From Eunapius fragilis (Eukaryota; Porifera; Demospongiae; Spongillida; Spongillidae): DNA of 64,000 nucleotides. The stretch covers positions 940,772 to 1,004,771 of the forward strand of contig OY811984.1 of NCBI GenBank assembly GCA_963681505.1. Direction: 5' to 3'. Both the position numbers and the translations under genes were made by a program. The first letter of the stretch is position 1. Each line of letters opens with the position of its first letter. Below are positions 5,221 through 63,130 of the stretch, piece by piece. The notes under the pieces are model-generated. The model was not told the origin of the DNA. It searched no databases and saw nothing but the letters and a program-made list of their open reading frames with translations.

Positions 5221-5264
<44 letters not shown>
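5221..5264. repeat. (CA)n microsatellite
   Basis: A perfect CA dinucleotide run of about 20 units, ending next to the left arm of the inverted repeat at 5267. Confidence 0.95.
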
Positions 5265-6015: not shown

Positions 6016-6095
6016 TTTTAATAATTTATGGCTGGAACGGGTATAGAATTCACATACTTGAATCTAGAAATAGACATGCACATGGCATAGATATG

Positions 6096-17185: not shown

Positions 17186-17819
17186 CTATGAGGTTGAAGG
17201 CTCAGCATCATCTGACTTCTTCACAGCATACTTTCCACTTTTACACCACTTGAGCACAAAGTAGGCCACCAAAACCCATGCCCCTAGAAGGGCAACAGCA
17301 ATCAACAGAAAGTAGCCAAATGCCTGAGGAGGGGAGAAGGGAAGAATGCATAGCAAGTCTGCACACAACATCACATATTTGAGGGCTTACAGCTGTAGCT
17401 CCTGCTGCTGAAAAAACAGCCTGACCATTTGTATAATATTTGGCAGAACTAGAATAAACAGCCATGGGTGTGGCCCCAGCAAACAGACCAAGTGCTACCA
17501 CCAGACAGATGACTGCATCCTGTAGGTGCACGTGTGAGGTAGCTCCCCTCCACCACACCACCACTACAACTTATACTGCATCCCACCACACCACACCCAC
17601 TTACTGTTATCACCAAGGGTAGTGTGTACTTCTCTATCAAGCCAAGGTTGAGGAACCTGATGACAATGATGTCTGCCTCTATCAACATGGCCACTATAGC
17701 AACAAACAGAAGCCATCCAGCTGCTGAGTATATTTGATCAACTATGGCTGCACCATAGTACACTGATACCCGTGTCCGGGTAGTAGCTGCTGGGATGATC
17801 AATACAAATGCCAGTACCT

Positions 17820-17857
<38 letters not shown>

Positions 17858-19184
17858 ATGTGTGTTGTGTGCACATGTGTGTATGCATGTGTGCATATGT
17901 GTGTGTGTGCATGTACATGTGAAGGAAATAACAATGCAATATTGATCAATGACTGCTTGGCATGTTTTGCCTCATCTACATCGTTAGTCCACAAAATTGT
18001 GCCTCAGATTTAGATATACACCTCTAGTCTCTAAGGACACCACCAACGATCCTTTCCATTCTTTCCATTGCAATGCTGCAAGAAGTTAGCCGCATTGAGA
18101 GTATTCTCATTGTGTTCTGCTACTGAAATGGAGGGTGGAACGTGTACATCATTGCTGCTGTTTGCTTCATCAGTGGTCTGATGTTTGAAGTTGCCGTGAT
18201 GTGAAAAGGTCTTGGGACCTCGCTAAAGATAAAGCAGAGATAAAGCAGAGATAAAGCAGAGATAAGCAGATAAAGCAGAGATAAGCAGATAAAGCAGAGA
18301 TAAAGCAGATAAAGCAGAGATAAATGATGCAATGCCTTTACTTTCCTGATCTGCGAGCTGCCAATAGACCAGTTTCACGTGAGGAATTAAAGTTATGTAA
18401 CGTCTGGCATCGTACTAGACCTAGTTTCTCAACGGGAACGACTGGGAATTAAAAAATAAAATAATGGGATCAAGCGAGGGCAGTTTGCCAAACCATATAC
18501 ACATGTATAGGGACTGAAAACGACTTATATACTAAACTGGATGCTAATTCAAGCATTGCTTTTAAAGATACTAGGATTGTATGTTTGAGGTGGGTTTAAT
18601 TTACCGCTTGGAAGTTAGCACCACATTCCTCAGTACCACATCCCATTTAATTTGTAATTCATTAAGATGCGGCCTGACGATAAGCGGCCAAACTTAATCG
18701 CGGTCAGAACATGTAGCTAGCTAGCTTGTGCAGAAAGAAAACAGCCTACTTACCAGTTCATGACACGGCCTGTAATATGAGCCGGGCTTCCACGTGGAAT
18801 CACGGAACTTTTTGTGTCCAAGGCTCCTGGCTAACCCACTACCAAGTTCCACAGAAATGAGACTTATTATTGTACAGGTGACCCGCAACCATGATGTACA
18901 CATACAGGGCGATGAACTGGTATGGCTTTCGAGGAGAAACCTGACCTTACTGGGTTCATAACATCCACGGGGCGGACTTAGTTTACCGTGCGTTCTAGTG
19001 TGACCAAACTTACCGCGACAACAGCCCGCAGAACGACCTCCACGATTCCCTGCCATGTTTTTATGATGTCGATCCCAGGGTGCGGTTTAAGAGCACTGAA
19101 GAATGACGTTGTCGACTCAGTCGGGACCGTCGTTGTCGTCGTTGTCGTCGTTGTCGTCGTTGTCGTCGCAACCTCCGCTGCCAT
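17186..19184 (-). CDS. Four-pass membrane protein, MARVEL-like, copy A
   Basis: Model: complement(join(17186..17323, 17391..17519, 17605..17817, 19014..19184)), 216 aa, all introns phase 0 and GT-AG. Exon 1 gives a Thr-rich N-terminus (13 Thr in a row from a GTC/GTT-type run), then HPGIDIIKTWQGIVEVVLR. TM1 spans the exon 1-2 junction (IVEVVLRAVVA then VLAFVLIIPA). TM2 is GWLLFVAIVAMLIEADIIVI. TM3 begins at the exon 3 Asp (DAVICLVVALGLFAGATPM). TM4 is FLLIAVALLGAWVLVAYFVL, followed by KWCKSGKYAVKKSDDAEPSTS. The four helices, short cytoplasmic ends, the Y-x-x-x-GW before TM2 and the Asp before TM3 resemble MARVEL/MAL-plasmolipin proteins, which organise membrane lipid domains or junctions. That family call is inference from pattern only. 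The palindrome GCGCATGCGC lies 21 bp upstream of the ATG. Confidence 0.75.
17820..17930. repeat. (GT)n repeat immediately upstream of copy A exon 2 acceptor
   Basis: On the gene strand this is an (AC)n tract ending CACTCAG at the acceptor; it takes the place of a normal pyrimidine tract. Confidence 0.9.
18220..18325 (+). repeat. GATAAAGCAGA tandem repeat
   Basis: About nine units of AGATAAAGCAG with shorter AGATAAGCAG variants, inside intron 1 of copy A. Confidence 0.9.
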
Positions 19185-22111: not shown

Positions 22112-23159
22112 CCCCTTAGCGAAGCAACCTCAGGTATATTCTGCCATTAATAAATAACAGGGAGGAATTTTCATCTCTTCAAAACTTGATGGAACGAAAG
22201 GTGGACTACATGAAGTTAAAGGTTGATACCACTAAAACACCTTCAATATTTGACATCTGATGAAACCTAAAGTCCACGACACCATCCGAGGAAGTAAAAA
22301 TTATGCACTCGTTTTTAAATAAATGGTGTCTTTGGGGTCTAAATAATAGGTTAGACATATTATTTAGATCATCTCGTATTATTAAAAATTCAGTGAGTTG
22401 AAACTAATGAGCGAGGCGATAATTAACAAGTAGCGCGTGTGGTCACTAATGAATTCACACGAAAACACTTCGAAACGTTTAACATAACTCAAACGAATAA
22501 AGTACAAGGAGCGCCCTTATCTAACGCTAAGCAAACTATGGTTCTGAACAGTTATTTTAGCGAGAACTGTTCTTACAGTCTAAAGGTGGCGCCAGTAATG
22601 AGGCTAAAAAGTAAAGAATGTATTCTTGATAATCAAACGGACAGTGTAAAAGCAGAAGACGAGATATTGTATATTTAGAGGTATATCAATACATGTAGAA
22701 TCAAAATATGATTGGATGCGGTACAAAATAATGGTCGAATTGAATAAATATTTTAAAAGTACTCCCTGTTAACCTGAAATTTTTGACTAATTGTTAAGCT
22801 GCACAAGAATAGCTGGTAGATTTCTACACATTGTGGTATTGTGGGCATGAATGTCATTAAGAAGCATTAACAGAGATAATCTATATTTTATCTCTGCCAT
22901 TAACGTTTACTTCCTCGATGGTGTCGCGGACTTTAGTACTGCACATGCCTTTGATGGTAAGCTATGTCGCATCTCTGGCTCTATTAAAATTTATGTTAAC
23001 ATTTTATAGCTGTAGTGTTCACTTTTATCATCACTGCATTGATTTATGCAGCAACTAGATAAATATATTTGACATTGTTTTGACAATGCGTGTTAAGGGC
23101 AACTTGCTGGCTTTGTATGTTAGCTGTTAATCACATTCCAAACCATTTATACATCTAGG

Positions 23160-23337
23160 CACGAGACTATGCCTTCCCCAATTCAACACCACGAGACTAT
23201 GCCTTCCCCAATTCAACACCACGAGACTATGCCTTCCCCAATTCAACACCACGAGACTATGCCTTCCCCAATTCAACACCACGAGACTATGCCTTCCCCA
23301 ATTCAACACCACGAGACTATCCCTTCCCCAATTCAAC
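23160..23337 (+). repeat. 30-bp minisatellite, six copies
   Basis: Unit core GAGACTATGCCTTCCCCAAT, perfect apart from the last copies. Duplication unit 2 has only one copy of the same unit at about 25969-25998. Confidence 0.93.
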
Positions 23338-23724
23338 ACTTCATGGAGTCGCAAACATTTTCATCTAACACCTTGCTCCTTAGTGGGAAAAATCAAACAG
23401 TGAGGTATTGGGATGGATAAGAGCACAACAGTAATTCTCAGACCTCTGTCTGAGGTGCTCTTACACCAACAGGAATGGACCATGGAGCAGGGTTGCCTCG
23501 TGTCTCTCCCTGACTTCAGTCTTAAATAATTATTTTGTTTATTAAGTGTACTATAATTTTACTCATGTAATGTACGTATTTTATGCTAAACAGTTTTAAA
23601 GATCAATCCACAACATCATCAACACATTACATAATAGAGATTAGAATATTTATACCCATAAATAATGATATATCCAAAGCGTCTTTTATTTTAAAAAAGA
23701 TCAGGATATGCTTTTATCATGAGG

Positions 23725-24044
23725 TTACAGGGGCTTTGAAGGCTCAGCGTCATCTGACTTCTTCACAGCATACTTTCCACTTTTACACCACTTGAGCACA
23801 AAGTAGGCCACCAAAACCCATGCCCCTAGAAGGGCAACAGCAATCAACAGGAAGAAGCCAAAGGCCTGAGGAGGGGAGAAGGGAAGAATGCATAGCAAGT
23901 CTGCACACAACGTCACATTTGAGGGCTTACAGCTGTAGCTCCTGCTGCTGAAGAAACAGATCCGTTTGATAGACTAGAATAAACAGCCATGGGTGTGGCC
24001 CCAGCAAACAGACCAAGTGCTACCACCAGACAGATGATTGCATC
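23725..24044 (-). pseudogene. Four-pass membrane protein, truncated copy B (exons 3-4 only)
   Basis: Exons complement(23725..23865) and complement(23931..24044) are intact in frame and end SDDAEPSKPL, nearly identical to copy C. The duplication breakpoint lies at the first base of exon 3. The sequence before it is now AATAAAA in place of an acceptor, so the splice AG is lost or shifted by one base, and no exons 1-2 belong to it. It is presumably not translated unless it is used as an unusual alternative 3' end of copy C. Confidence 0.8.
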
Positions 24045-32528: not shown

Positions 32529-33203
32529 TCAGCGCTTGTCATCACCGTCATCCCCGCCGTGCTCTGATATTCTAGAGTGGGCCTGAACGTACTTACCCCC
32601 CACACACCACTTCAGAAAGAAGGTAGCTACCAGTACCCATGTCCCTAGAGCTGCAAAGGCCACCATTTCAAAGTAGCCAAAGGCCTGGGGAAGAGACATG
32701 AGCATCAATGGTGCAGTGGAGGGATGAAGACGACTTACAGCTGCAGCTCCAGCAGGTGAACCCGCAGGATAGGTACTCAGGGACGTGGCGTAGGTTGCCA
32801 TGGGTGTGGCTCCAACGAACAAGCCAACTGCCACAACATATGAGATGGAAACATCCTGTGTGTGTATGTGTGTGTGTATGTGGTGTGTGTATGTGGAGGA
32901 TGGCATGTGAAGATGTGGATGCAGCAAAGGTTGAGTGCATTGGAAAAGAAGACCACACCCCCCTTACCGTTATCACCAGTGGGAGTATATATTTCTCTAT
33001 CAAGCCAAGGTTGAGGAACCTGATGGCAATGATGGCTCCCTCTATCAACATGGCCACTATGGTCACAAAGAGTAGCCATCCTGCTGCAGAGTACGCTGCG
33101 CCCCCATATGGTGATGGTGATGGTAGTGATGGTGATGATGGTGGTAGGTTAGCTGTAGTCTGTGTAACCCCTGCTGGGATGATCAGCACAAATGCCAAAA
33201 CCT

Positions 33204-39748: not shown

Positions 39749-41181
<1,433 letters not shown>

Positions 41182-42390: not shown

Positions 42391-44124
42391 ATGACCACTC
42401 GAATGCTAGGTGAGTTTGATATCCCAGCGCGCATATGGAGCATGGTAGATGTGATGTTCGCAACGTGAGATGCAGGGAGGCTAAGGTTCCTCGACTCGGG
42501 TAAAGATGACGCCCTGATGCAAAGAGCAGAACAGGTGCGTATTGTGAAACAGAGTGGGCGGGGGGGAGGGGATGCTTGCTTATAAGAAGAGGGTCTACCG
42601 CAGGCCGTGCGGGACCGTGGAGTGGAGCCGGTCTGGGTAAGCGGAGACCTGAAAGCGGAACAAGTGAACAAGGAGAGTATTTACGTCCTGGAGAACTTCG
42701 ACTCACCTCCATTCAAGCTTCTTGCGAAGAAGTGTCGTTTGGTTGGGCCAGGGGTGGTGTTGGCTCATCTCCAGCGAGGATTGGTACGCAGTATTGACGT
42801 CGTAACTTTCCTATATGAACAAAAAAAAAAGAAAAAGAGGGAGGTGGTCACTGGTGATGAACAAAGCCTATCATAACCCCCCCCCTCCCTCCCCATCCCT
42901 CCCCAGCCTCTCCCAGCTGCCATGCAACCTGTATTCTCCTTGGCCATGCTGAACATAGTGGCCTGCTTCACCCAGCCTGGGCCGCGCGAGAAGAGGGACC
43001 TACTGTGTGAGCGTGTGGTGCTGATGGGTGGAAAAGTCCTGGGAGATTTCACCAGACACGTGCGTTGGGGTGGTTTTTTTGAGCGTGGCAGAAAAAAATC
43101 AAACTGTATCCTCTCTACTACAGGTGACACACCTTATAGCTGGGCAAGTAGGGAGTACCAAGTACAATGTGGGAGAATTGTTTTGATGTTGCTGTCACGG
43201 CGACCAGCAGTGTGTTCTTTTTGTAGGTTGCCCGGCAACTTGGCATCCCGGTCATGTTGCCTTCGTGGGTGGAGGACTGCTGGGAAAAAGGGCTGAACGA
43301 TGTAATCTATGCTGCAGACGATGAAGTGGTAAGAACAGACAGATGGGTGTGGTCTGAAGGTTGCAATTTCTTGATTGACAAATGTAGTTAAAACTCATTT
43401 TAATGATATCGCTGATACAAATTTGATTCACATACCACCCTGTGAAATACAGCACTTTCATCTGTACCTAGGTATTAAATGTGTGTGTTTGAACAGTTGT
43501 GTGTACCTACAGTGCAAAACTAATGCCCGCTCCCAACCCCCCTCTCCTCCCACTCTCCTCGTCCTTCTACACCTCTCCTCTCCTCCCCCTCCTCTCCTCC
43601 CCCTCCTCTCCTCCCCCTCCTCTCCTCCCCCTCCTCCTCTCCTCCCCTCCTCCTCTCCTCCCCTCTCCTCTCCTCCCTCCTCTCCTCCCCCTCCTCCTCC
43701 CCTCCTCCCCTCCACCTCCTCTCCTCCGCCTCTCCTCTCCTCTCCTCCCCTGCTCCCCTCACTCATTAGATCACCCTCCATCGCTGCCCTCCCCTTACAG
43801 GCTGCACCATCACAGTGACAGGTCTGGATGAGGGTACGAGGAGGCAGGTGTCTGAGCTCTGTCTGAAGCATGGTGGTGCGTACAGTGGAGAGCTGGTGAA
43901 GGACTCCTGCACCCACCTCTTGGTGGGAAGCAAGAACAGTTGAGCAGTCTTCCCTCCGACTGTACATGTGACCACACCTACCTTCCCTCATCACACATTA
44001 CACACATATACACACATACACATACATTCATACATGCATGCATACATACATACATACATACATACATACATACATACATACATACATACATACATACATA
44101 CATACATACATACATACATACATA

Positions 44125-44158
<34 letters not shown>

Positions 44159-47100
44159 ATCCATTCAGGCACCAAATACAAGTATGCCCGGCAGTGGGGT
44201 GTGGAGTGTGTGACCCTCCAATGGCTCCATGACAGTGTGGCCTGTGGATACTGCATGCCTGAAAAGGACTACGATGTGGAGCTCTCCCCTGCCAGCTCCA
44301 GAAGACCCTCTGCTCCACAGGAGGAGGGGAAACCCAGTGAAGACTGGGTGAGGGAGTTACAGGAGTATCAAGTGCCAGCCAGCTCTGAGGCCTGCTTTTT
44401 GGATGGATGCAAGGTTAAGGGGAAGAGAATGGAGGAAGGGGTGTGGTCTGTTTCACTTGATGGCCTTGTCTTGTAGCTGTATTTCAGCGGCTTTACAGAA
44501 CAGCAGCTGGAAAAGCTTTATCGTATTGTGAACATTGGAGGCGGGGCTAGGTTAGTTGGTGCTCTGCAGGGGTTATTAACATTGGAGGCGGGGCTAGGTT
44601 AGTTGGTGCTCTGCAGTGGTTATTAACATTGGAGGCGGGGCTAGGTTAGTAGGTGCTCTGCAGTGGTTAATAATTGCAAACGCACCTGCATTTTAAATAT
44701 GTCTATTGGTACATTGTACCTCTGCTCCACAGCCTTTGGTACCTCTGCTCCACCCCTCCCTGTAGCCTTTGGTACCTCTGCTCCACCCCTTCCTGTAGCC
44801 TTTGGTACCTCTGCCCCACCCCTGCCTGTAGCCTTTGGTACCTCTGCCCCACCCCTTCCTGTAGCCTTTGGTACCTGCCCCACCCCTTCCTGTAGCTTTT
44901 GGTACCTGCCCCACCCCTTCCAGTAGCCTTTGATACCTCTGCTCCACCCCTTACAGGTTTAGTGACCTTAACCCTGGAGTGTCCCATGTTGTAATGGGGA
45001 AGCAGCTGCTATCAGAACTGGCCAGCCTTAATCAGCTAGGTCATTGGTGAGTGAGTAAAGGGAAGGTGGAGGGGAGGGCATGTAGGGGGTGGGTGAATAT
45101 AAGGAAGCGGGATGTATAAGGAGGGGATATAAAGGGATGGTATAAGGGTGGAGGTGCTTTATAAGGGGAGGTAAGGGGAAGAGGTGTTTATAAGGGGGAG
45201 GTAAGGGAGATGTAAGGGTGGAGGTGCTTATAAGGGGGAGGTAAGGGAGATGTAAGGGTGGAGGTGCTTTATAAGGGGAGGTAGGGGGAGAGGTGCTTAT
45301 AAGGGGGAGGTAAGGGAGATGTAAGGGTGGAGGTGCTTTATAAGGGGAGGTAGGGGGAGAGGTGCTTATAAGGGGGAGGTAAGGGAGATGTAAGGGTGGA
45401 GGTGCTTATAAGGGGGGGGGGGGGGGAGGGGGAGAGGTGCTTATAAGGGGTGTATAAGGCCCCTGGGGGAGAGCATGTACCAAAGGTCAACGTAATGGAC
45501 CCTGGGGGAGAGCGTGTACTAAAGGTCAACATAATGACCCCTGGGGGAGAGCATGTACTAAAGGTCAACATAATGACCCCCTAGGGGAGAGCATGTACTA
45601 AAGGTCAACATAATGACCCCCTAGGGGAGAGCATGTACCACGGTCTATTTTTTGATGTATCAATTGCACTCATTGGTCAAATAATAACGGTGAAGACAAC
45701 AAAAATAAGCATATTGGCATGTTTTGGCGATTATTAATTATACTAAACAAATTTACATGATCACTCAATTCTAATTTACAAGAAGTAATGTTTATAACTT
45801 TTCATTGATCTTGAATATGTGGCTACGATTTCAATTTGATTTTGTGGGTCTTAATGTAGTTACCTAACCATTCATTATACTCTTGACTGGCAATGCAGAA
45901 AATAGTATTTATTATTATTTTAATCCTGAGTTAACTGTTGCGCTCATTTAGAAATGCCCAGTATAAGGAGAGGGGGAGGGTATAAGGAGAGGGGGGAGGG
46001 TATAAGGAGAGGGGGAGGGTATAAGGAGAGGGGGAGGGTATAAGGAGAGGGGAAGGGTATAAGGAGAGGGGGGAGGGTATAAGGGAGAGGGGGAGGGTAT
46101 AAGGAGAGGGGGAGGATATAAGGAGAGGGGGGAGGGTATAAGGAGAGGGGGGAGGGTATAAGGAGAGGGGGAGGGTATAAGGAAAGGGGGAGGGTATAAG
46201 GAGAGGGGGAGGGTATAAGGAGAGGGGGAGGGTAATAGGAGAGGGGGGAGGATATAAGGAGAGGGGGGGAGGGTATAAGGAGAGGGGGAGGGTATAAGGA
46301 GAGGGGGAGGGTATAAGGAGAGGGGGAGGATATAAGAAGAGGGGGAGGGTATAAGGAGAGGGGGGAGGGTATAAGGAGAGGGGGAGGGTATAAGGAAAGG
46401 GGGAGGGTATAAGGAAAGGGGGAGGGTACAAGGAGAGGGGGAGGGTACAAGGAAAGGGGGAGGGTATAAGGAAAGGGGGAGGGTATAAGGAGAGGGGGAG
46501 GGTATAAGGAGAGGGGGGAGGGTATAAGGAAAGGGGGAGGGTATAAGGAAAGGGGGAGGGTATAAGGAGAGGGGGAGGGTATAAGGAAAGGGGGAGGGTA
46601 TAAGGAAAGGGGGAGGGTATAAGGAGAGGGGGAGGGTATAAGGAGAGGGGGAGGGTATAAGGAGAGGGGGGAGGGTATAAGGAGAGGGGGAGGGTATAAG
46701 GAGAGGGGGAGGGTATAAGGAGAGGGGGAGGGTATAAGGAGAGGGGAGGGTATAAGGGAGAGGGGGAGGGTATAAGGAGAGGGGGAGGGTATAAGGAGAG
46801 GGGGAGGGTATAAGGAGAGGGGGAGGGTATAAGGAGAGGAGGAGGGTATAAGGGATAGGGGAGGGTATAAGGAGAGGGGGAGGATATAAGGGATAGGGGA
46901 GAGGGTATAAGGAGAGGGGGAGGGTATAAGGAGAAGGGGAGAGGGGGAGGGTATAAGGAGAGGGGGAGGGTATAAGGAGAGGGGGAGGATATAAGGAGAG
47001 GGGGAGGGTATAAGGAGAGGGGGGAGGATATAAGGAGAGGGGGGGAGGGTATAAGGAGAGGGGGAGGGTATAAGGAGAGGGGGGGTATAAGGAGAGGGGG

Positions 47101-50100
47101 AGGGTATAAGGAGAGGGGGAGGGTATAAGGAGAGGAGGAGGGTATAAGGAGAGGGGGAGGATATAAGGAGAGGGGGAGGATATAAGGAGAGGAGGAGGGT
47201 ATAAGGAGAGGGGGAGGGTATAAGGAGAGGGGGAGGGTATAAGGAGAGGGGAAGGGTATAAGGAGAGGGGAAGGGTATAAGGAGAGGGGGAGGGTATAAG
47301 GAGAGGGGGAGGGTATAACGGATAGGGGGTAGGGGAAGGGTATGTATCTAGTGAGGTACTTACATACTTCATGGAGCAAAAACCACCTCCATACCCCAGT
47401 CCATAATATCTTCCTTTCCCCTGCAGCCCACACGTCGTTTCAGTGAAGTGGCTCCTTGCATGTTGCAGTAGTGGGACGAGAACTCCTGAGGAAAGCTATG
47501 TCTGCCTACGTCTTCAGCTCCAGGCCTCTCCCCTACAGCAGCAGCCTTCAAACAAGAGGACACGGTATGACTGCTGGCATCCAACGATGGCTGTCCCTCC
47601 ACCAATGTTGTCTGCAGGTCCTCAGAGGACTGTAGTGACCTCCCCTCCAAAAAAGTGTTCCGCCCACTACCACCACCCCCTGATCAGCTGCTCACAAGAC
47701 CTGAGGATTCAGACCTCCTTAATGAATACGGAGCAGGTGTGTATCTAAGTGGGAGGAGCTTGGAGCTGGTAGGAGCAGGGGTTGTGGGGGAGGAAGGGAG
47801 GGGTGTGGAAGAGGAGAGGGAGGTGGGAGGGGAGTGTGGAAGAGGGAAGAGTTTGGGATTTTTTTTTCATATGCATTTTGTCATTGTAGCCCGAATGCCA
47901 CCTTGTGAAGGACTGTTTTCTGGCAAAAGCTTCTCCATGAGCTTGCGTTTTAATGCACAAGACATGCTTACAGCTACAGGAATTGTACAGTCCAATGGAG
48001 GTACATGTGTGTGTTGTGTCTGTGTGTATGTGTGTGAGTGTCTTGTGTGTGTATTGTGTGTGTATGTATGTATGTTGTGTGGGGTACATGTCATTTATTG
48101 CACAATACATGTACGTCACTTTTGAAGGTAAGGTGGTGGGACCACTTGGAGACTATCATGTTGTACCTTTGGAGTTGGTTGGTGAAGCAGTGTCATCCTC
48201 AGCACAATTAGTTACCATGGTCTGGGTGGTAAGATCCTCTTGTTCTCAAAGTATGCTCCAATTAATGTCCTCTTCTCTCCTAGCAAAGGTGTATAGACAG
48301 CAAGTGTCTGCTCGATCCCAGCTCGTACTTCCTCTTCCAACCAGTGCCCACTCCTCTTTCTCGTACCACTCTAGGTGGTTGTGTCCTGGCACTTAGGTGA
48401 TGATTCCTTCTGTGTCCTTCTCTCCCTCTCCCCCCCTTCCCTCCTCCTCCCCTTCCCTCTCCTCCTCCCTTCCCTCCTCCTCCCCTTCCCTCCTCCTCCC
48501 CTTCCCTCTCCTCCTTCCCTTCCCTCTCCTCCTCCCCTTCCCTCTCCTCCTCCCCTTCCCTCTCCTCCCCTTCCTTCTCCTCCTCCCCTTCCCTCTCCTC
48601 CCCTTCCCTCTCCTCCCCTTCCCTCTCCTCCCCTTCCCTCTCCTCCCCTTCCCTCTCCTCCCCTTCCCTCTCCTCCCCTTCCCTCTCCTCCTCCCCTTCC
48701 CTCTCCTCCTCCCCTTCCCTCTCCTCCCCTTCCCTCTCCTCCCCTTCCCTCTCCTCCTCCCCTTCCCCCTCCTCCTCCCCTTCCCTCTCCTCCTCCCCTT
48801 CCCTCTCCTCCTCCCCTTCCCTCTCCTCCTCCCCTTCCCTCTCCTCCTCCCCTTCCCTCTCCTCCTCCCCTTCCCTCTCCTCCTCCCCTTCCCTCTCCTC
48901 CTCCCCTTCCCTCTCCTCCTCCCCTTCCCTCTCCTCCTCCCCTTCCCTCTCCTCCTCCCCTTCCCTCTCCTCCTCCCCTTCCCTCTCCTCCTCCCCTTCC
49001 CTCTCCTCCTCCCCTTCCCTCTCCTCCCCTTCCCTCTCCTCCTCCCCTTCCCTCCTCCCCTTCCCTCTCCTCCTCCCCTTCCCTCTCCTCCTCCCCTTCC
49101 CTCTCCTCCTCCCCTCTCCTCCCCTTCCCTCTCCTCCTCCCCTTCCCTCTCCTCCTCCCCTTCCCTCTCCTCCTCCCCTTCCCTCTCCTCCTCCCTTTCC
49201 CTCTACCTCTGACATGTGTATCTATGTGCTCAATGTGATGACCTTACATGGGCATCTTCATATATATATATATATATAGCTTGATTATGTGCACATGTAC
49301 ACACACATGCACATATGTACATGTGCATATGCACACATGTACACACATGCGCACACACATTCACGTACACACTACAAAACCATTCCGAATTCTTTAGCCA
49401 GTTCTCTGACCTTGAACGTGAACATTTGGTACGATTTTGCCAGGGTCTTGGAGCAGTGTAAGTATTGTATTCTCTTTCTGTCCTGTTTTGTTTAATTAAT
49501 AACTGTTTGGTTAATTAATAACCCTTTGCCTCTCAGTGTACAGGACCCATTTGTGCACCACCCCAGTCGAGCTCTGATGGCATCGACACATCTGGTGCTC
49601 AAAGAGGCTGGAGGGGAGAAGTATGAGTGTGCTGCCAAGTGGGGTATTCCAGCCGTCAGGGACAGCTGGTTGTTTGCCTGTGCAAAGGCCCGTTGTGTGG
49701 CACCTGTTGAGGAACACCTTGTCAAGCCATTGCTACTGATGGAGCAGAACCTTGTCAAGCAGGTTCCCACTGGAGATGATTTTGGACAAGGACCTGTTCA
49801 GAAGGCAGCTACTGCTGTGAATCTCGAGAAGCCAGATATCACCGTCAAGCCAATTCAGCCTCTGGAGGCTTGTAAGGCAGTTCCATCTGCGGAGCCTTTC
49901 AAACAGGTTCTGCTTGGAAGCACTACCAGTTCAGGAGGACCCACCTTGGAGACGCCCCTCAAAAATTTTCGACCTCACTTTGATATCAAGGTGCTTGATT
50001 GTTGCATATATGAGATGTGCCATATAGTGTGTCTAACACATATCTGGTGTGTACCCTAACATATATACCCTAACATATGTACCTCAAGTGTACCCTAACA

Positions 50101-52069
50101 TATGTACCTCAAGTGTACCCTAACATATGTACCTCAAGTGTACCCTAACATATGTACCTCAAGTGTACCCTAACGTATGTACCTCAAGTGTACCCTAACA
50201 TATGTACCTCAAGTGTACCCTAACATATGTACCTCAAGTGTACCCTAACATATGTACCTCAAGTGTACCCTAACATATGTACCTCAAGTGTACCCTAACA
50301 TATGTACCTCAAGTGTACCCTAACATATGTACCTCAAGTGTACCCTAACATATGTACCTCAAGTGTACCCTAACATATGTGCCTCAAGTGTACCCTAACA
50401 TATGTGCCTCAAGTGTACCCTAACATATGTGCTCCTAACGTATGTACCTCAAGTGTACCCTAACATATGTACCTCAAGTGTACCCTAACATATGTGCCTC
50501 AAGTGTACCCTAACATATGTGCTCCTAACGTATGTACCTCAAGTGTACCCTAACGTATGTACCTCAAGTGTACACTGAGATACATATGTTAGGGTACGCT
50601 TGGTGTACATACATTAGGGTACGCTTGATGTACGTACATTAGGGTACCATCAAGGTACATCCTAACAGACGTGCCCTTCTATGTATCCCACAGCCTGCAT
50701 TGGAACTCCTCCCCTCTCCCATCCCTGGCAATAACACGGTATAGATTTTAACCCTTAGTGCACTGCATTGGCCATCACGTGCCGATGATCCACAGCAACT
50801 TGCAGAGATGTTTGAGATCAACATGGCGAAGGCACTGGAGACAGCCACAAAGGCAGAGAGTGAGGCCAACATGAAGGAAGCGGTGCTGAGAGGAACGGTG
50901 CTGTGTTTGAGCAAGAAGCTGACATCATATGGTGAGAGGCATGGGAGGGGGGAAGGGGAGGAAGAGAAGGGGAAGGAGGAGGGAGGGGGAGGAGGAGGAG
51001 GGAGGGGGAGGATCCAAATGTGCTTCTTTTGTGTTACTTTTCATATTTTCACAGCTGACCTTCATTCTCTTGCATGCCTGCTTGGGGCGGAGTGCCGTCG
51101 GTATGTTGATGACAGCTGTACCCACTACGTGGGCCAGTCAAAAGGGACTGGGGACAAGGAATGGAAAGCCGCCAAGGACAGAGGTTGCTATCTGGTGTCC
51201 CCTCACTGGGTCTTTGAGGTGAGTGTAAATCGCTTTGCCCAGCTGTGATGTGGGTACTATGTCTTTGTGTCCCCTGTGCAAAGTGCGACAAAGCTATGAA
51301 GAAGGTTGATGAAGCACTGTACCCACCTACCTACAATCCTAGCATGGCTTTGGTAAGGGGTCAGAGAGCTCTTGTTTTCAAGTCAGCCCTTGCTTTTCTG
51401 TAGAACATCTCCTCAACTCACAAGTCAGCACCAAGCAAAGAAGCTCTCTCTGAAGACGAGGTTGCTAGGGAACAGCATGCTGATGAGGTTGCTAGGGAAC
51501 AGCATGCTGATGAGGTTGCTAGGGAACAGCATGCTGTTGAGGTTGCTAGGGAACAGCATGGTAATGAAGCCGGGTCCCCCACTAGGCAACCTCTGCCAGA
51601 CCCCACCCACCACCACCACCTCTCCCCATCCAAGCCTTGTCCTACAGAACCCCTCCTCCATCAGTCCCCTCCCACCAAACCACCCCCACAAGACCCCGAG
51701 GCCCCAGTCCTAGAGAAGGCTCGGCAGGAGCAGGAGCTGAGGCAGGAGTTGGAAGAGCTGAGGCACTCTGTGTGTGGAGGGGACCCAAAGCAAAGGAGGA
51801 AGAGCAGGAGGCTTGTGCAGCAGAGAGGGGTACCCATAGTACCGCCCCCTCTCCCTTCCCCGGGGGCAAGGAGCAGGAGGTCACGACGATGGCGCGGTAA
51901 GGAGGTCATGGTGGACAGCCAACTTTCTGATTCCCAGGTCATGACGGTGGTCTATGACGACCCTGCCGGTAGGAAGGCTAAGGAGAAGTTGTTAGAGGCC
52001 ATCGAAAGGTGTGTGTAAGAGGGTTGTTTGGGGTGTGTAGTTTGGGTGTGTGTGCTTAATCAGTGGTAT

Positions 52070-52111
<42 letters not shown>

Positions 52112-53801
52112 TAATCAATGGTATTGTGTGTGTGTGTGTGTTTGTGTGTGTGTGCAGAGAAGAACAACTGAAGGCCAAGGGTATTGACCCCAGACTACTT
52201 AGGAGCCCCCCAAAGGGACCAGATATTCAGCTCATCCTCCCCCCACTGAACAGCGAGCTTGAAGAAAGGATCTTTGCTGCTTATGTGTCTCCCCTTCAGA
52301 CCAAGATCACGGACTCCTCCCTCCTTCCTCACACCTCTGTTCCTCCAGCCTCCACCTCCATCAGACAGACTGGGCTGGAGAGGAAAGTCCAGTCTGGGGA
52401 AGAGGCATTGACAGGGCTAGAAGTGGCTCCTGATGGGAAGACTGTTTTGCCTGTTGAAGCTGTGCCTATTGGCGGATCAGACGGCCGTGGTACGTCAGAC
52501 GATCTTCCCTCAGCCACTCCTGCCCCGCCCCCACTCAACGTCCCCATTGTGACGCATGCACGGCCAACCAGTGAAGGTGTGGGTGTGGTCAGCACGGACT
52601 TCTGTGGGTCAGATTTGATGTTACCTTATATCGTTGTCTCCACAGCCCAGCCACTGTTTGATGAGGGGGAGGTAACCAGAAAGGTATGTGGTGTTTGCAG
52701 CAGGAGGGGCGTTACGGTACAGAATTTGTGTGAAGTCTGACTGCCAGAGCTTAGATGCTAACAATGTAAATTCATTAAATTTAACGGTCTACGAAATCTA
52801 GCGATTTCAATGGAATTTATTGGTTGATTGTTAGTGTATAATAATAGCAACGTGCGCTATTTTTAGTACATCCAGTCGAACAACTGAACCAGCCCATCCA
52901 TTTGTGCTATCCCCCCATTCACCTGTGTTTCTGCTAGTCAAGTTTTAGCCTGCAAGTTGAGTGATGAAGTTTAATACTCGCTTGGTGGTCCAAAAGGTGC
53001 AAGCATCTACCCAGGGACCCTTTACTGCTCAGTGTTATGGTACCCTTTACTGCTCAGTGTTATGGTACCCTTTACTGCTCAGTGTTATGGTACCCTTTAC
53101 TGCTCAGTGTTATGGTACCCTTTACTGCTCAGTGTTATGGTACCCTTTACTGCTCAGTGTTATGGTACCCTTTACTGCTCAGTGTTATGGTACCCTGTAC
53201 TGCTCAGTGTTATGGTACCCTGTACTGCTCAGTGTTATGGGACCCTTTACTGCTCAGTGTTATGGTACCCTTTACTGCTCAGTGTTATGGTACCCTTTAC
53301 TGCTCAGTGTTATGGTACCCTTTACTGCTCAGTGTTATGGTACCCTTTACTGCTCAGTGTTATGGTACCCTTTACTGCTCAGTGTTATGGTACCCTTTAC
53401 TGCTCAGTGTTATGGTACCCTGTGAGTAACCTGCCAGGGAATAACTTCCTAAATGAGTCCTGCCCTCTTCACTGGTGTTCTGTCTTTTTACATTGGGGCT
53501 ATTCCATTTAATGACCACACAGGGGTACGGATGACACATCAATAAATCACCCTGGACAGTTAATAAATCCTCCTGGATATTACGAATATCAAAGCTAACC
53601 ACCATTAATAACTATTTTTCCATCCGTACCCCTGTACAGTCATTGAATAGAATAGCCCATCCCATTACATGTATTTTTTTTTCCCCCATCAGTTACGACC
53701 ACAGCCTCGTAAATTCCTCTTATCTCTTTTGGAACCCAGTGTAAGTATATCTTGGCTGCTGCCGTGTGCATATATGCAGTAAACCTACAGACACTGTATG
53801 C

Positions 53802-53842
<41 letters not shown>

Positions 53843-55847
53843 AACACTGTAGGAGAAAACAGACTATGGTGCACTTATTCAAGAACTAGGTGGGGAGTAT
53901 ATGGATGTTGACTACTTCACCACCAGTTGTACTCATCTTATTGTTGGTAAGGGGTCTTACGGTCTTGTCACCTGACACCTCCATAATTACGATTTTTCTT
54001 TTTTTTTAAATGCCAATTTAGGTAAGGCGAGCCGTACTGAGAAGTACCTTGGGGCATGTGCCTGTGGTAAGTGGGTACTGAGGAAGTCTTATCTGGAGTC
54101 ATGCAGAGCAGCGAAGAAGTTTGTGGAGGTGAGCTGGGTAGTGTGTGTGTTGTGTGTGTGTGTGTGTGTGTGTATGTGTTGCATGTGTGTGTAAGTGTTG
54201 CATGTGTGTGTGTGTCGCAGGTGTGTGTATGTGTCGCATGTGTGCGTATGTGTGTTGCATGTGTGTGTATCTGTGTCGCATGTGTGCGTATGTGTGTTGC
54301 ATGTGTGTGTATGTGTGTTGCATGTGTGTGTATGTTTGTGTATGTGTGTGTGTTAGGATCTGTAGTACCTTATCTTCCACACACCATCCTCTCCATCCAA
54401 ACCCCTCCTACTTCCTTCCTTGATAGGAGGAGCCACATGAGTGGGGAGAGAGGCTGGGCAATGTTCCCTTGGAGCCCCTCGAGTGTGCTCCAAAGAAATG
54501 GAGGCTGGCCCTTAGCAAGTCCAATAAGGTGGGTGTGGCATATGTGACAATATGGGGGTACACCCTAAAACTGAAGGAAGGAGGTGACGAGTGAGGGGTG
54601 ACGTCATATGGAGGTGCTTCATGGGAAAGGGATACATCAATGATGTAAGGAGGGAGGTGGTTATGAAGGTAACATCATGTGAAGGGGAAGGGTACATCAA
54701 TGATGTAAGGAGGGAGGTGGTCATGAGTACATATGAAGGTGACATCATGTGAAGGGGAAGGGGTAATCAGTGATGTCAATCTGGCCATTGAATTGAGGGT
54801 AGTGATTATAATTAATTATGTAATGTTGTTCATCTATTCATAAGGTCACCACCACTTGTATTCCATTTAGGGAGGCAGGCGACCTGAAGGTGCATTTCAT
54901 GGATGGAAGGTTTGGTTTGGGATGGGGAATTGATGGAAGGTTTGGGATGAGGGGGAGGGGGAGGGATTGATGGAAGGTTTGGGATGAGGGGGAGGGGGAG
55001 GGATTGATGGAAGGTTTGGGATGAGGGTGGGGGGGAATTGATGGAAGGTTTGGGATTAGGGTGGGGAGGAATTGATGGAAGGTTTGGGATGAGGGGGAGG
55101 GAGGAATTGATGAAAAATTTGGGATGGGGGGGGAGGAATTGGTGGAGGGATTGATGGAAGGTTTGGGATGAGGGTGGGGGGGAATTGATGGATGGTTTGG
55201 GATGAGGGGGAGGGAGGAATTGATGGAAGGTTTGGGATGAGGGGGGAGGAATTGGTGGAGGATTTGGGATGAGGGGGAGGGGGAAGGTTTGATGGAAGGT
55301 TTGGGATGAGGGGGGGAGGAATTGATGGAAGGTTTGGGATCAGGGGAGGAAGAATTGATGGATGGTTTTCTTTCGAAGCCGGACCCACCATTCTCTGTCA
55401 TAAAATCACAGGTGCTTGTCTGCATGGAGAAGAAGAAATTATTGGGACTGAAGCGTCTACTGGAGGCTGGGGGTGCTGAGGTCATCCTACCAACATCATC
55501 GTACGTAAGCCCCTCTCACAAAACCCCTCTTCTCAATATGAATTACAAGTTGCCCATCTTTGTTCCTCCTTCCTCCCTCCCCACTTTTAGGTCGGTGTCC
55601 ATCAGAGGATTGACTCATGCACTTATCAACATGGGCTATTTTCCAAGTGACTTGGTAAGTATTTGCTCTGGGGCCTCCCAATTAGTTAGTCTACCCTTAC
55701 CGTAACCCCTCCCACCAGCTGACACTGGAGGACCTGGTGAAGGAGGGGGTACACTGCTTAAAGCCTGAGTTCATTACGGACTACTTGTCAAAGGTGAGTA
55801 TCATTAGGAGCTAGCTGGCTGTGTGCATGGTTCATGTACATCATGTG

Positions 55848-55888
<41 letters not shown>

Positions 55889-55953
55889 AGGGAGATGATT
55901 CTGACATGGAGAGTTCATATCTCCCTCAAGTGAAGGCCATGCTCAAGAGATAG
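42391..55953 (+). CDS. TOPBP1: DNA topoisomerase 2-binding protein 1 orthologue (TopBP1/Dpb11/Rad4)
   Basis: 33-exon model, 1481 aa (human about 1520). Exons: 42391-42409, 42476-42534, 42604-42783, 42907-43059, 43124-43168, 43227-43328, 43453-43471, 43801-43938, 44169-44413, 44477-44550, 44957-45046, 47427-47564, 47618-47736, 47890-48000, 48128-48228, 48284-48396, 49398-49457, 49537-49990, 50694-50738, 50796-50931, 51055-51218, 51284-51352, 51404-52008, 52158-52683, 53693-53740, 53853-53946, 54022-54128, 54427-54528, 54871-54909, 55412-55500, 55591-55654, 55719-55793, 55891-55953. All phases close. It is a BRCT scaffold for replication initiation and ATR activation. BRCT0-2 (about 7-275; THLIAG, LPSWVEDCWEKG, CTHLLVG), BRCT3 (about 320-400), BRCT4-5 (about 461-655; STHLVLKEAGGEKYECAAKW), BRCT6 (about 785-870), ATR-activation motif VVYDDPAGRKAKEKL (about 1060) and BRCT7-8 (about 1256-1475; CTHLIVGK, GAFHGWK) appear in the animal order. 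Exon 7 is a 19-nt microexon. Confidence 0.93.
43545..43768 (+). repeat. Pyrimidine-rich (CTCCTCCCC)n array, TOPBP1 intron 7
   Basis: Almost pure C/T units CTCTCCTCCCCCTCCT, ending about 30 bp before the exon 8 acceptor; a hugely extended pyrimidine tract. Confidence 0.93.
44030..44158. repeat. (CATA)n then (CA)n, TOPBP1 intron 8
   Basis: About 20 CATA units followed by a CA run, ending about 10 bp before the exon 9 acceptor (ATTCAG at 44168). Confidence 0.95.
44529..44668 (+). repeat. 47-bp triplication of the exon 10 donor region
   Basis: The end of exon 10 with its donor (GAGGCGGGGCTAG|GTTAGT) occurs three times, with donors at 44550/44551, 44597/44598 and 44644/44645, so the period is 47 bp. 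The first copy is taken as the real junction because the upstream exon is continuous with it. Each unit also contains CTCTGCAG, an acceptor-like string. Confidence 0.9.
44728..44956 (+). repeat. About 30-bp array of acceptor-like units before exon 11
   Basis: Seven to eight units with core TGGTACCTCTGCTCCACCCC followed by TTCCTGTAG. Each TTCCTGTAG looks like a 3' splice site. The last unit ends CCCCTTACAG at 44956, the acceptor used in the model. Confidence 0.9.
45060..45640 (+). repeat. Complex minisatellite, TOPBP1 intron 11 (left part)
   Basis: Two arrays. At 45060-45460 are GGTGCTTATAAGGGGGAGGTAA-like units of about 40-60 bp, many containing GAGGTAAGGG, similar to a donor. At 45460-45640 are four to five units of about 58-60 bp with core GGGGGAGAGCATGTACTAAA. 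Confidence 0.88.
45958..47335 (+). repeat. 1.4 kb (TATAAGGAGAGGGGGAGGG)n minisatellite, TOPBP1 intron 11
   Basis: About 70 copies of a 19-20 bp purine-rich unit on the sense strand, with GGAAAGG, GGATAGG and ATATAAGG variants. Long reverse-strand Pro/Ser/Leu/Tyr ORFs across it are repeat artefacts. Confidence 0.96.
48420..49207 (+). repeat. 0.8 kb (CCCTTCCCTCTCCTCCT)n minisatellite, TOPBP1 intron 16
   Basis: Units of 12-15 bp, pure pyrimidine on the sense strand, in an intron running from 48397 to 49397. The antisense Glu/Gly/Arg ORF is an artefact. Confidence 0.96.
49260..49380 (+). repeat. (TA)n and CA-rich simple sequence, TOPBP1 intron 16
   Basis: A short TA run at 49260-49278, then ACACATGCACATATGTAC-type alternating purine-pyrimidine sequence. 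Confidence 0.85.
50046..50665 (+). repeat. 25-bp minisatellite with an inverted tail, TOPBP1 intron 18
   Basis: About 20 direct units with core TACCCTAACATATGTACCTC at 50046-50575, then two to three units in inverted orientation (GTACATACATTAGGGTACGC) at 50585-50650. The head-to-head junction could fold back. Confidence 0.93.
51458..51565 (+). repeat. Coding 27-bp repeat in TOPBP1 exon 23
   Basis: Four in-frame copies of a 27-bp unit encode EVAREQHAD-type nonapeptides in the linker between BRCT6 and the ATR-activation motif. Confidence 0.92.
52070..52157. repeat. (GT)n repeats, TOPBP1 intron 23
   Basis: Two GT runs separated by a near-duplicate GCTTAATCARTGGTATTG segment; the second abuts the exon 24 acceptor TGTGCAG. 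Confidence 0.9.
53018..53423 (+). repeat. 25-bp minisatellite, TOPBP1 intron 24
   Basis: Sixteen near-perfect units with core GGTACCCTTTACTGCTCAGT. All three forward frames are open across the array; this is repeat periodicity, not coding. Confidence 0.96.
53806..53842. repeat. (AC)n upstream of TOPBP1 exon 26
   Basis: The AC run ends about 10 bp before the ACTGTAG acceptor. Confidence 0.9.
54140..54356. repeat. GT-rich repeat after the exon 27 donor, TOPBP1 intron 27
   Basis: GTGTGTGT with TTGCATGTGTGTGTATGTG higher-order units of about 21 bp. Confidence 0.92.
54895..55375 (+). repeat. Minisatellite seeded at the exon 29 donor, TOPBP1 intron 29
   Basis: About 16 units of GATGGAAGGTTTGGGATGAG plus a variable G-rich spacer. 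The first unit is the end of exon 29 with its donor, GGATGGAAG|GTTTGG (54901-54915), so every unit carries a copy of that 5' splice site. Confidence 0.93.
55851..55886. repeat. (AC)n upstream of TOPBP1 exon 33
   Basis: The AC run leads directly into CACTCAG, the last acceptor of the gene. Confidence 0.92.
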
Positions 55954-56044: not shown

Positions 56045-56983
56045 ATGACCACTGGAAGGTTAACAGACGAGGAGAAGAACTACTACAGGCGTGTGGAGGA
56101 ATATTTGGGCGCTGAGGACCTCGAAGACACTGAGCTATTCTCACGGAACGTCTTACAACAGGTGCTTAAGGATGGCGCCAAGCGAGTTTTATGTGACAGG
56201 CACGGGAGTTGGGCGACCGAAAAGGTGTTGCTCAGGGCCGACCTGAGCGCTGAGGACATCCAGCCGCTGTTACAACCCGTAACGGACAGCTTCTACCAGC
56301 TGGCCACTAGTAGGTGTGGCAGCCACGTGGTGCAGACACTTGTGCAGATGGCCGCGCGCGCGCGTCTGGAGAATGACGTGTTGAAAGTCGCGGACTGCGT
56401 CGAGGCGCACCTCGATGAGCTCCTGGCGCACGAGTTCGGCAGTCACGTGACAAGCATCACGGTGCAGGTGTTGGCGGGCCTGAAGGTGAGTGATCAGGTG
56501 AGCCGAAGCCGCGGGTCTCGGCAGAACCGAGAGGCCCGGCTGATGACTGACAACAAGAAGGCCCTTGACTGGAGCACAGTGCCAGAGAGTTACCTTCAGA
56601 AACTCGAAAGGGTCGCCAAGAGGACATGCAAGCTCCCAAACTTGGCCGAGCTGTTTGTCAGCGCCAATGCGGTCCCGGTGTTCAGGGTGCTGTTGCTGTC
56701 TTTAACCCATTGCATCCCAGCACGAGCCGCAAGACTGGCGAAGAAGGTGCTCAAGGTCCAGACCCTGGGAACAGTCGACCTGTGCACCCACGTTGTAGGG
56801 AGTCACCTAATGCAGACCTTGATAGAGGTGTCCGCATTGGATGTTCGCCAGAAGGTGTTTGATAAGTTGTACAGGGGCCGTGTCATGGAATATGCTCTGC
56901 ATCCTATTGCCAACTACACATTGCAGCAGTTCCTAGCAACTGGTAGCTCTGAGCAGGTGAAGTAGATATGTCTTTGTGTTTTA

Positions 56984-57022
<39 letters not shown>

Positions 57023-58495
57023 GTGTATATTTTGTGTGATATGTTAGGTGTGTGTATTAGTGTGTAGTGCTTGTGTGTGTATGTATCCATTATTGTGTGC
57101 ATGTATATCTGTTTATTTGTGGCGGTTGTTCAGTGAAAACCTCCAGGTCCACTGTTGCATTGTGCTGCATTGGAATACCAAATGAATATTAATTCTGATA
57201 ATCGCTTGATCAGAAAGGGACTGGTGTTGTAATGTCCTAGATGGTAATCTCTCAGTTTTATTGCCCCCATCCCAACAGGGATTTATTTCATGAGGTGTTG
57301 TTTATTTAAGTTGTGATTTCTTATCATCACAATGTGGAATTCACACAGTATCCCCCCCCCCCCCCAGACCATTTCATTGAAAAAGTGAAATTGTTTGTAT
57401 GTTTATGAATATGGCTTTATGTTCCCCCCCTTTCTCTTTCATCCACCCTCCACCCACCTCATTCATCCTTCCCCTCCCCACCTCCTCCACCCTATCCATT
57501 TCTCTTTCATTCACACCTTTCCACAATCTCCTCCACCTCATTTCCCACACTTGCCTCATTCCTAACTGTCCTGCATTATGTCTCCATTATTCCTCACCAA
57601 CACCTCACCGACCCTCACCCACACCCCTCACCCTCACCTCACCCACCCTCACCCTCACCTCACCCACCCCTCACCCACACCTCTCACCCATAACTCTCAC
57701 CCACCCCTCATCCCCTCACACTCACCTCACTCAACCCTTCATCCTCACTTACCCACCCAACTCACCACTTTCTCTCATTGCTGCCTTGATTCATGCCTAT
57801 GGAAGGTATCTGAGGTGGTTCAGGAACTGGGAAATCTGGAAGAGGTCTTATTTGTGGGGCACTCAGGAGTAGTAGTCAAACTACTTGAAGTTTGTGTGAG
57901 GTGTGTGGAACATCAGCAGCTCGTTCTTCAAAACCTGCTCAAATGTTTTCACACTGAGAACACTTTGGATAAGTGCGTGCCTCTGTTTCTGACCCTAACC
58001 ACTGTCGAAGTCCACACTGCTCAGGTATGAGGAGCAACACATTGTGTGTATATGTGTATGTGTGTGTATATGTGTGTGTACATATCTATGTATGTGTGTA
58101 CGTATGTATGTGCGTAATTTATGTATGTGTGTGTGTGTGTGTTGATTGTATGTGCGTGTTCATCAACACTTCTAAATGCTATTGTCATCATGTAAAGCAT
58201 GGACTTGTGTGTACTGATGTGTGATATACAGGTCTGTGTTTAGTAGGTAAACTATGAAGTATTGGTAAGAACCATCTTTACTTTCAGAGCACACCAACGC
58301 TCCACGGCTCCCTCATGCTGCAATCATTGCTTAAGTTCAGAGATCCCAGTGTCATTGTTAATAGTATGATGAGCATGTCACCTGACCAGCTGGTGGGTTT
58401 GGGCTGTGACCCTTGTGGTAGCCATGTGATGGAGGCTTTTATGGGTAGCACGACTGTACCTACAACCAAGAAGGCAGAACTTGTGAACCTTTTGA

Positions 58496-58556
<61 letters not shown>

Positions 58557-59004
58557 GGTGTGTACGTGGGTGTGTTTGTGTGTGCATGTGTGTCTTGATG
58601 AAGATGTGCCACACACACACACACACACACACACAGGGCAGGTACGTTACTCTCAGCAAAAGCAAACATGGCAGTCGTCTGGTTGAGGCAATGTGGAGGC
58701 ACTGCACGGTAGGCCAGAAGGAAGCCCTTGTGACTGAGCTGCTAGGCAACGAAGAGGAACTGTGTTCTGATTACTACGGGAAATTTGTACTGCGCAATGT
58801 GAACGCCTTGCACTATAAGAAAATGCAGGGGGCGTGGCAGTCTCAACAGCAGTCAGCAGGGAAAAGGCAGGAACTGTTCCAGGACATCATTTCTGGCGAT
58901 ACTGGCACTTCAGCTGAGGTCTGTGTCTATTTTACAGCACTTAACTAAATCTTGCTTTTTAATTCGCACAGGGTCACCCTCCAAGTAAGAGGCATAGGAA
59001 GTGA
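56045..59004 (+). CDS. NOP9: Pumilio-repeat nucleolar protein NOP9
   Basis: Model: join(56045..56956, 57806..58024, 58288..58497, 58637..58918, 58972..59004), 551 aa, all phase-0 introns; human NOP9 is longer (about 636). NOP9 is a PUF-like RNA-binding protein of the nucleolus that binds pre-18S rRNA during 40S subunit assembly. Repeats with the Puf-type signature are visible: DRHGSWATEKVL, SRCGSHVVQTLV, HEFGSHVTSITV (first exon, about residues 55-140), THVVGSHLMQTLIEV and HPIANYTLQQFL (about 250-300), VGHSGVVVKLLE, DPCGSHVMEAFM, SKHGSRLVEAMW and DYYGKFVLRNVN (later exons). The last exon encodes a short basic tail (SKRHRK), possibly a nuclear or nucleolar signal. Start choice: ATG 56045 begins MTTGRLTDEE; an in-frame upstream ATG at 55997 gives a hydrophobic non-family extension. 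It starts 91 bp after the TOPBP1 stop. Confidence 0.92.
57420..57780 (+). repeat. Pyrimidine/CACC-rich region, NOP9 intron 1
   Basis: CCTCACCCACCCTCACC-type units precede the exon 2 acceptor, while a (GT)n run (56990-57020) follows the exon 1 donor. Confidence 0.85.
58498..58636 (+). other. NOP9 intron 3, bracketed by (GT)n and (AC)n
   Basis: This 139-bp intron begins with GTGTGTGT for about 55 bp straight from the donor and ends with about 25 bp of ACACAC straight into the acceptor CACAG. The two ends are complementary and could pair in the pre-mRNA, bringing the splice sites together. No normal pyrimidine tract is present. Confidence 0.85.

Positions 59005-59143: not shown

Positions 59144-63130
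<3,987 letters not shown>

Follow-up and report, generated by a model that had tools for sequence, protein, structure and literature searches.

Gene models and the comparison set

The window, that is, the whole 64,000-nucleotide stretch of DNA that was analysed, carried gene models for PSMD7, TOPBP1, NOP9 and KARS1, and, on the minus strand, for a family of tetraspan-like paralogues. The comparison set comprised 54 modelled introns, 46 of which belonged to the four genes (PSMD7, 5; TOPBP1, 25; NOP9, 4; KARS1, 12) and 8 to the paralogue family. All 46 introns of the four genes were GT-AG, and the spliced frames were all open. For PSMD7 and KARS1 the models agreed with the human chains, for TOPBP1 with TopBP1 chains as well as BRCT domains, and for NOP9 with NOP9-like proteins. 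Identity to the human protein was 69% for PSMD7 (291 columns) and 68% for part of KARS1 (253 columns), values that we consider compatible with a non-vertebrate. The TOPBP1 model started at 43802, with the exons 5' of this position outside it.

The tetraspan-like cluster occupied 16300-39400 (- strand) and contained copies A, B and C, the partial copies E and F, and more exon copies at about 23.8k and 26.5k. Copies A and B were open from Met to stop across their introns, and the family gave a weak MARVEL match below the cut-off. The 54 exclude the intron that precedes TSP_C exon 2, as well as copies E and F, as no full intron was modelled for them. For the same reason, the arrays at 5223, 16611 and 33208 were dropped from the 54-intron counts; there was no gene at 5223, and the arrays at 16611 and 33208, in AC orientation and immediately 5' of a conserved paralogue exon, would have strengthened the sorting described below. 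Both kinds of array were common in the window, which held 10 GT and 5 AC pure runs of at least 8 units. No structured RNA family at the gathering threshold and no tRNA (ARAGORN, bacterial code) was found in the window.

Anatomy and borders of NOP9 intron 3

The features of NOP9 intron 3 and its flanking exons were as follows.

58288..58497, + strand: NOP9 exon 5' of intron 3 (Pfam PUF_NOP9 392-463 and gene model)
58498..58636, + strand: NOP9 intron 3, 139 nt, GT-AG, phase 0 (gene model)
58498..58551, + strand: pure (GT)27, starting at the donor
58552..58593, + strand: degenerate GT prolonging the (GT)27
58594..58609, + strand: non-repeat spacer of 16 bp with the branch-point-like TTGAT inside
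58610..58636, + strand: (CA)13 then G, the AC array closing in the acceptor AG
58637..58918, + strand: NOP9 exon 3' of intron 3 (Pfam PUF_NOP9 465-514 and gene model)

The initial annotation had described about 55 bp of GT repeat from the donor, about 25 bp of AC repeat into the acceptor and about 60 bp between them. Both arrays were recovered, the first as the pure (GT)27 of 58498-58551 with degenerate GT to 58593 and the second as the (CA)13 of 58610-58635, which overlapped the acceptor AG (58635-58636). The interval held as a distance from pure array to pure array (58 bp), and it did not hold as repeat-free sequence, because 42 bp of it was degenerate GT and 16 bp was neither repeat. The donor, AAG/GTGTGT, matched the U1 consensus MAG/GTRAGT at 8/9 positions, and the runner-up GT in the intron matched at 7. 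Besides the acceptor AG, a single AG was present inside the intron, at 58602. TTGAT was the only yTnAy branch-like match, and its A (58598) lay 38 nt from the last base of the intron. The acceptor contained no U and had a longest pyrimidine run of 1, the poorest tract of the 54 introns, in agreement with the missing pyrimidine tract noted initially.

The positions 463 and 465 of the PUF_NOP9 profile met across the junction. The spliced NOP9 protein (550 residues) was aligned with Pumilio homolog 23 (chain 5wzk_A), which we take to be a plant protein; the alignment was gapless through the junction, with an E value of 2.8e-22 for the whole sequence. Since 139 nt is not divisible by 3, retention of the intron shifts the frame, and the unspliced ORF at 58258-58686 departed from the NOP9 frame and reached a stop at 58684-58686. 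An unspliced intron or a border elsewhere was therefore judged unlikely, because the profile positions meet at the junction and retention breaks the frame. On sequence comparison, both borders are fixed by homology. The GT-AG ends and the U1-like donor are those of a U2-type GT-AG intron.

Predicted RNA hairpin

The RNA ends had been proposed to be complementary and able to form a hairpin, and the folding calculations bore this out. NOP9 intron 3 folded alone to -60.7 kcal/mol (z -2.31), with 3/200 dinucleotide shuffles as good, and with 10-nt flanks the z value was -3.33 and 0/200 shuffles were as good. In the ensemble computed with 30-nt flanks, the AC array was paired to the GT array with a mean probability of 0.99. 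In this ensemble, the AC array paired mostly with GT positions at a distance of about 24 to 50 nt from the donor. The first 24 or so intron bases thus lay outside the AC helix, and the branch-like A58598 was unpaired with a probability of 0.95. In the flanked fold, the corresponding values were 0.10 for the A and 0.76 for the G of the acceptor AG, and 0.17 to 0.61 for donor positions -3 to +6. The burial of the acceptor A and part of the donor in this predicted fold would not obviously be of help. The minimum free energy structure represented just 1.85% of the ensemble; hence, the pairing register was not fixed.

The intron had complementary repeats at opposite borders, a stable predicted bridge and no usual tract, and its anatomy matches a known class, the AC-GT bridged introns. 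Such introns of fish and lamprey were reportedly described by Lin et al. (2016, Genome Res 26:12). Their AC- and GT-rich tracts form structure across the intron, according to a passage of a review (PMC7404189), and a passage on zebrafish in another review describes splicing without U2AF2 through such hairpins (PMC9198270). The fish precedent invoked by the initial annotation, including the lower need for U2AF, was thus found in these passages and extends to lamprey. NOP9 intron 3 resembles the fish and lamprey introns in its donor GT, its acceptor AC, its short length, its strong predicted bridge and its lack of a tract. In contrast to them, it was one case among 54 introns with no co-occurrence excess in the window, AC acceptors without a GT partner were commoner in the window, and the host is apparently a non-vertebrate. 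A literature search of partial coverage, through titles and the openings of abstracts, returned no report of GT/AC-bracketed introns outside vertebrates.

Side-specific sorting of GT and AC arrays

At an array score of at least 24, GT arrays were present in 7/54 introns and AC arrays in 8/54. Apart from those of NOP9 intron 3 and the acceptors described in the next section, the arrays included the following.

40259..40299, + strand: GT array 21 nt past the donor of PSMD7 intron 3 (40238-40348)
44000..44157, + strand: AC-rich array in TOPBP1 intron 1 (43939-44168), 11 nt short of its end
48006..48075, + strand: GT array 5 nt past the donor of TOPBP1 intron 7 (48001-48127)
49332..49372, + strand: imperfect AC array in TOPBP1 intron 9 (48397-49397), 25 nt short of its end
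52009..52157, + strand: TOPBP1 intron 16, GT-rich along its whole length up to 3 nt short of the acceptor; an exception to the sorting
53805..53843, + strand: AC array in TOPBP1 intron 18 (53741-53852), 9 nt short of its end
54141..54353, + strand: GT array 12 nt past the donor of TOPBP1 intron 20 (54129-54426)
56984..57026, + strand: GT array 27 nt past the donor of NOP9 intron 1 (56957-57805)
58043..58159, + strand: GT array 18 nt past the donor of NOP9 intron 2 (58025-58287)
61767..61784, + strand: short (18-nt) AC array 7 nt past the donor of KARS1 intron 7; an exception to the sorting

The centre of the array lay in the 5' half of the intron for GT in 6/7 introns and in the 3' half for AC in 7/8 (Fisher p 0.01, 54 introns). 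At the lowest array threshold (score 20), the corresponding values were 6/8 and 7/8 (p 0.041). When the arrays were slid at random within their own introns, the position P was 1.5e-5; it was 2.7e-4 without NOP9 intron 3 and 0.004 when the paralogue family was also removed. On the sense strand of the window, GT was therefore on the donor side and AC on the acceptor side, which is the arrangement of one-sided splicing elements. This side-specific sorting in the window is a more informative finding than the hairpin.

The composition of the introns was also asymmetric. G was commoner in the 5' half in 43/54 introns (p 1.2e-6), and C was commoner in the 3' half (p 2.7e-4). Once the 14 introns with arrays were removed, G was still commoner in 31/40 (p 9.7e-5), C gave a p of 0.0017, and AC plus CA was not significant (p 0.3). 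When the acceptor region was trimmed as well, G was commoner in 14/19 (p 0.03) and C was not significant (p 0.16).

AC and GT repeats were reportedly predicted by Yeo et al. (2004, PNAS 101:15700) to be intronic splicing enhancers in fish. The window resembles that description in having GT and AC arrays near splice sites in a one-sided manner. It differs in being apparently outside vertebrates and in showing side-specific orientation in one 64-kb window, where enhancement would be putative. The window also shares its intronic repeat types with the vertebrate CA elements (hnRNP L) and GU repeats (TDP-43), with the difference that its AC arrays occupy the place of the pyrimidine tract.

As a separate observation, the GT array of TOPBP1 intron 7 showed partial pairing (0.66) with sequence on the acceptor side other than an AC array, and this may be a weaker bridge.

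AC acceptors without a GT partner

After NOP9 intron 3, the poorest tracts were those of TSP_C intron 2, TOPBP1 intron 25 and TSP_A intron 1, with pyrimidine runs of 1, 2 and 2, respectively. These three introns had AC acceptors and ordinary donors with no donor GT array.

17818..19013, - strand: TSP_A intron 1, with an AC array followed by TCAG as its acceptor; no GT array at the donor GTAAGTTTGG; gene open from Met to stop
32856..32967, - strand: TSP_C intron 2, with an AC array directly against the acceptor; no GT array at the donor GTAAGGGGG
55851..55889, + strand: AC array directly against the acceptor of TOPBP1 intron 25 (55794-55890); no donor GT array

Four of the seven AC-only introns were folded, and the pairing of the AC array with the rest of the intron was 0.31, 0.18, 0.00 and 0.04. 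Moreover, the intron-1 acceptor was homologous across five tetraspan paralogue copies, being AC-rich in A, E, C and B and pyrimidine-rich in F; in this comparison, copy E is a fragment and copy F is without a full gene model. Given the AC-only acceptors, the mostly unpaired arrays and the paralogous acceptors, AC tracts in these gene models seem to take the role of pyrimidine tracts with no bridge involved.

Co-occurrence and pairing of intron ends

The initial annotation had made a genome-wide excess of paired GT/AC introns a test of its proposal; among the 54 introns in the window, no excess appeared. Both arrays were present in one intron, NOP9 intron 3, against 1.04 expected as the product of the two separate frequencies, in a set of a size (n = 54) at which a modest excess is undetectable. 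The remaining array introns, 13/14, carried one repeat unit only.

The pairing between intron ends was evaluated in the 26 introns of at least 100 nt. The mean energy was -21.7 kcal/mol for own donor and acceptor ends and -23.7 kcal/mol for swapped ends. Hence, there was no own-end pairing excess over swapped ends in these 26 introns (P 0.79; 0.92 without NOP9 intron 3), and the own acceptor of NOP9 intron 3 ranked 7th of 26 for its donor. Donor ends paired with the acceptor ends of other introns at -23.8 kcal/mol, donor with donor at -20.7 and acceptor with acceptor at -14.2. This better donor-acceptor pairing across introns is what a general G-to-C asymmetry would give.

The proposal that the hairpin juxtaposes the splice sites of NOP9 intron 3 and replaces its pyrimidine tract was upheld in part. 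The complementary ends, the unpaired branch-like A and the absent tract agree with it. The poor-tract AC acceptors without a GT array and the AC arrays that were mostly unpaired in the four AC-only introns tested speak against the hairpin as a requirement, and its necessity is not supported by these comparisons. The hairpin was also considered as the sole reason for the sorting, which the co-occurrence count, the pairing swap and the AC-only introns did not support.

Genome-wide motif counts

The genome searched comprised 218,937,333 bases in 24 contigs. (GT)8 within 30 nt after the donor motif AGGTAAGT gave 36 forward and 199 reverse matches, and (AC)8 gave 2 forward and 18 reverse matches at 4 distinct sites; the forward counts are one per site, and the reverse counts include repeated registers. 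Among the matches listed, the (GT)8 sites numbered 28, of which 17 shared one repeated sequence and 11 did not (10 if a near-identical pair is counted once), and the repeated sequence made up 12/14 of the forward sites. One (AC)8 site lay in the contig range of the listed (GT)8 matches. A control with the backward pattern gave 194 and 16 matches for GT and 53 and 3 for AC, or 16 vs 3 in the one-per-site direction. The occurrence of a C-free motif close to GT arrays in preference to AC arrays is a general feature, and these counts do not show splice-specific sorting, because the backward control has a similar GT excess and one repeat dominates. That repeated sequence, with the donor-like AGGTAAGT before a GT microsatellite, was observed on contigs 1, 3 and 4 (for example at C1:14727565, C3:7619916 and C4:7255328). 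It is probably an element, mobile or duplicated, whose tail is a microsatellite.

The order (GT)8 N20-50 (AC)8 gave 348 matches per strand and the reversed order 122, with registers counted and compound microsatellites included. The pairing model could claim this excess, which is not tied to introns. The genome was also searched for introns with (GT)6 and (AC)6 directly against their two splice sites in the length range 46-76 nt, which excludes the 139-nt NOP9 intron 3 itself; no match was found, and the reversed control also gave 0.

Twenty random 10-kb stretches were also scanned. YAGG within 16 nt followed 5/52 AC arrays and 1/52 GT arrays, under a rule with one extra clause for AC, which leans the tally slightly to AC; in the window, the tally was AC 6 and GT 2 of 15 arrays. 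No array of either kind after a donor motif was found in these 20 stretches. Array pairs at most 300 nt apart, in the random stretches and the window together, were 2 GT-AC, 1 AC-GT and 14 of the same kind.

Possible mechanism and alternative explanations

The reading that we prefer, with a probability of about 0.5, is that microsatellites have been held in the orientation compatible with splicing and that the hairpin is an optional consequence. NOP9 intron 3 would then be of the ordinary U2-type GT-AG kind, with two microsatellites that grew up to its splice sites. The repeats (GT)n and (AC)n are one microsatellite read in two orientations, and selection through splicing would have retained the orientation that fits, with GT-rich or G-rich sequence past donors and G-free, AC-rich sequence ahead of acceptors. 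The sorting observed in the 54 modelled introns may extend across the genome. The first GT of NOP9 intron 3 would be chosen as the donor for being the only GT after AAG and the one with the best match to U1. The AC tract may serve as an AG-free approach to the acceptor, and we infer that it acts for the pyrimidine tract either directly or via a CA-binding protein. Since the intron happens to carry both arrays, its RNA can form a hairpin that would unite the donor, the branch point and the acceptor; this hairpin may help and would not be required.

Alternatively, the GT-AC hairpin may itself have been selected, as in the bridged introns of fish, pairing the splice sites and freeing the intron from the need for U2AF2 and a pyrimidine tract. 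The exact anatomy at both borders, the nearly complete pairing of the AC array, the unpaired branch-like A and the worst tract of the 54 introns are consistent with this explanation, for which passages on fish and lamprey provide a precedent. The better pairing of donor ends with other introns' acceptors than of like with like, and the commoner GT..AC order in the genome, point in the same direction; several of the GT..AC matches, however, were compound microsatellites in which GT adjoins AC. Against a selected hairpin stand the AC acceptors that occur without a bridge, the window's lack of any excess in co-occurrence or own-end pairing, the rank of only 7th of 26 for the intron's own acceptor and the empty genome search for short introns (46-76 nt) with both abutting arrays. 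A selected hairpin is considered doubtful, with a modest chance of being correct. The repeats could also be read by proteins, each repeat alone being an intronic enhancer, with a TDP-43/CELF-like factor on the donor GU and an hnRNP L-like factor on the acceptor CA. The one-sided sorting in the window and the reported enhancer prediction for fish would fit such factors, and the composition alone (G-rich 5' halves and C-rich 3' halves) may explain the sorting without them. In human, HNRNPL is associated with AC repeats and TARDBP with GT repeats, as a passage of PMC13174678 states. Reading by proteins is regarded as unlikely to be the main explanation.

Two further explanations concern NOP9 intron 3 only. 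Its GT array alone, for example as a pUG quadruplex, might control retention of the intron, which would truncate NOP9. The pUG fold needs 12 repeats or guanosines according to passages of PMC12276007 and PMC12962679, and the 27 GU repeats exceed this number; the pairing with the AC array would compete with such a fold, and control by the GT array is very improbable. The intron might also have arisen from an inserted, introner-like element with complementary ends. The termini are indeed complementary, yet they are simple repeats, and the presence of one unit only in nearly all array introns argues against such an origin, which can hardly be credited.

Acceptor recognition without a pyrimidine tract is the point of wider interest, as it has been little explored beyond a few cases. 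The paralogous acceptors that are AC-rich or pyrimidine-rich, together with the one intron that has the complementary GT tract as well, form a natural set that could serve to separate AC alone from AC paired with GT. As a tentative and on balance improbable suggestion, a non-vertebrate animal may use the fish AC/GT splicing code, in which AC tracts would take the place of pyrimidine tracts at many acceptors, whether a GT partner is present or not, and uridine-free tracts would be tolerated; the code would then be pre-vertebrate or have evolved more than once. Should the pattern extend through the whole genome of a non-vertebrate, the code known from fish would not be a vertebrate invention.

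Other features of the window and genome

Minisatellites of 18-37 bp filled introns of KARS1 and TOPBP1 (60328-61273, 45961-47334, 48416-49209 and 54926-55368), and in KARS1 intron 5, pyrimidine-rich minisatellite units extended to the acceptor. A second NOP9-like match was present in the genome at G000:C3:3356695-3356928 (32.6 bits, profile 241-319). The regions 1-2656 and 3086-3847 of the window comprised a long open frame, which may resemble a Pao/BEL-type retroelement polyprotein, and a minus-strand frame with a DDE-superfamily HTH domain. Furthermore, the blocks at 6093-7878 and 20428-26726 were duplicated, with about 90-99% identity among the pairs listed.
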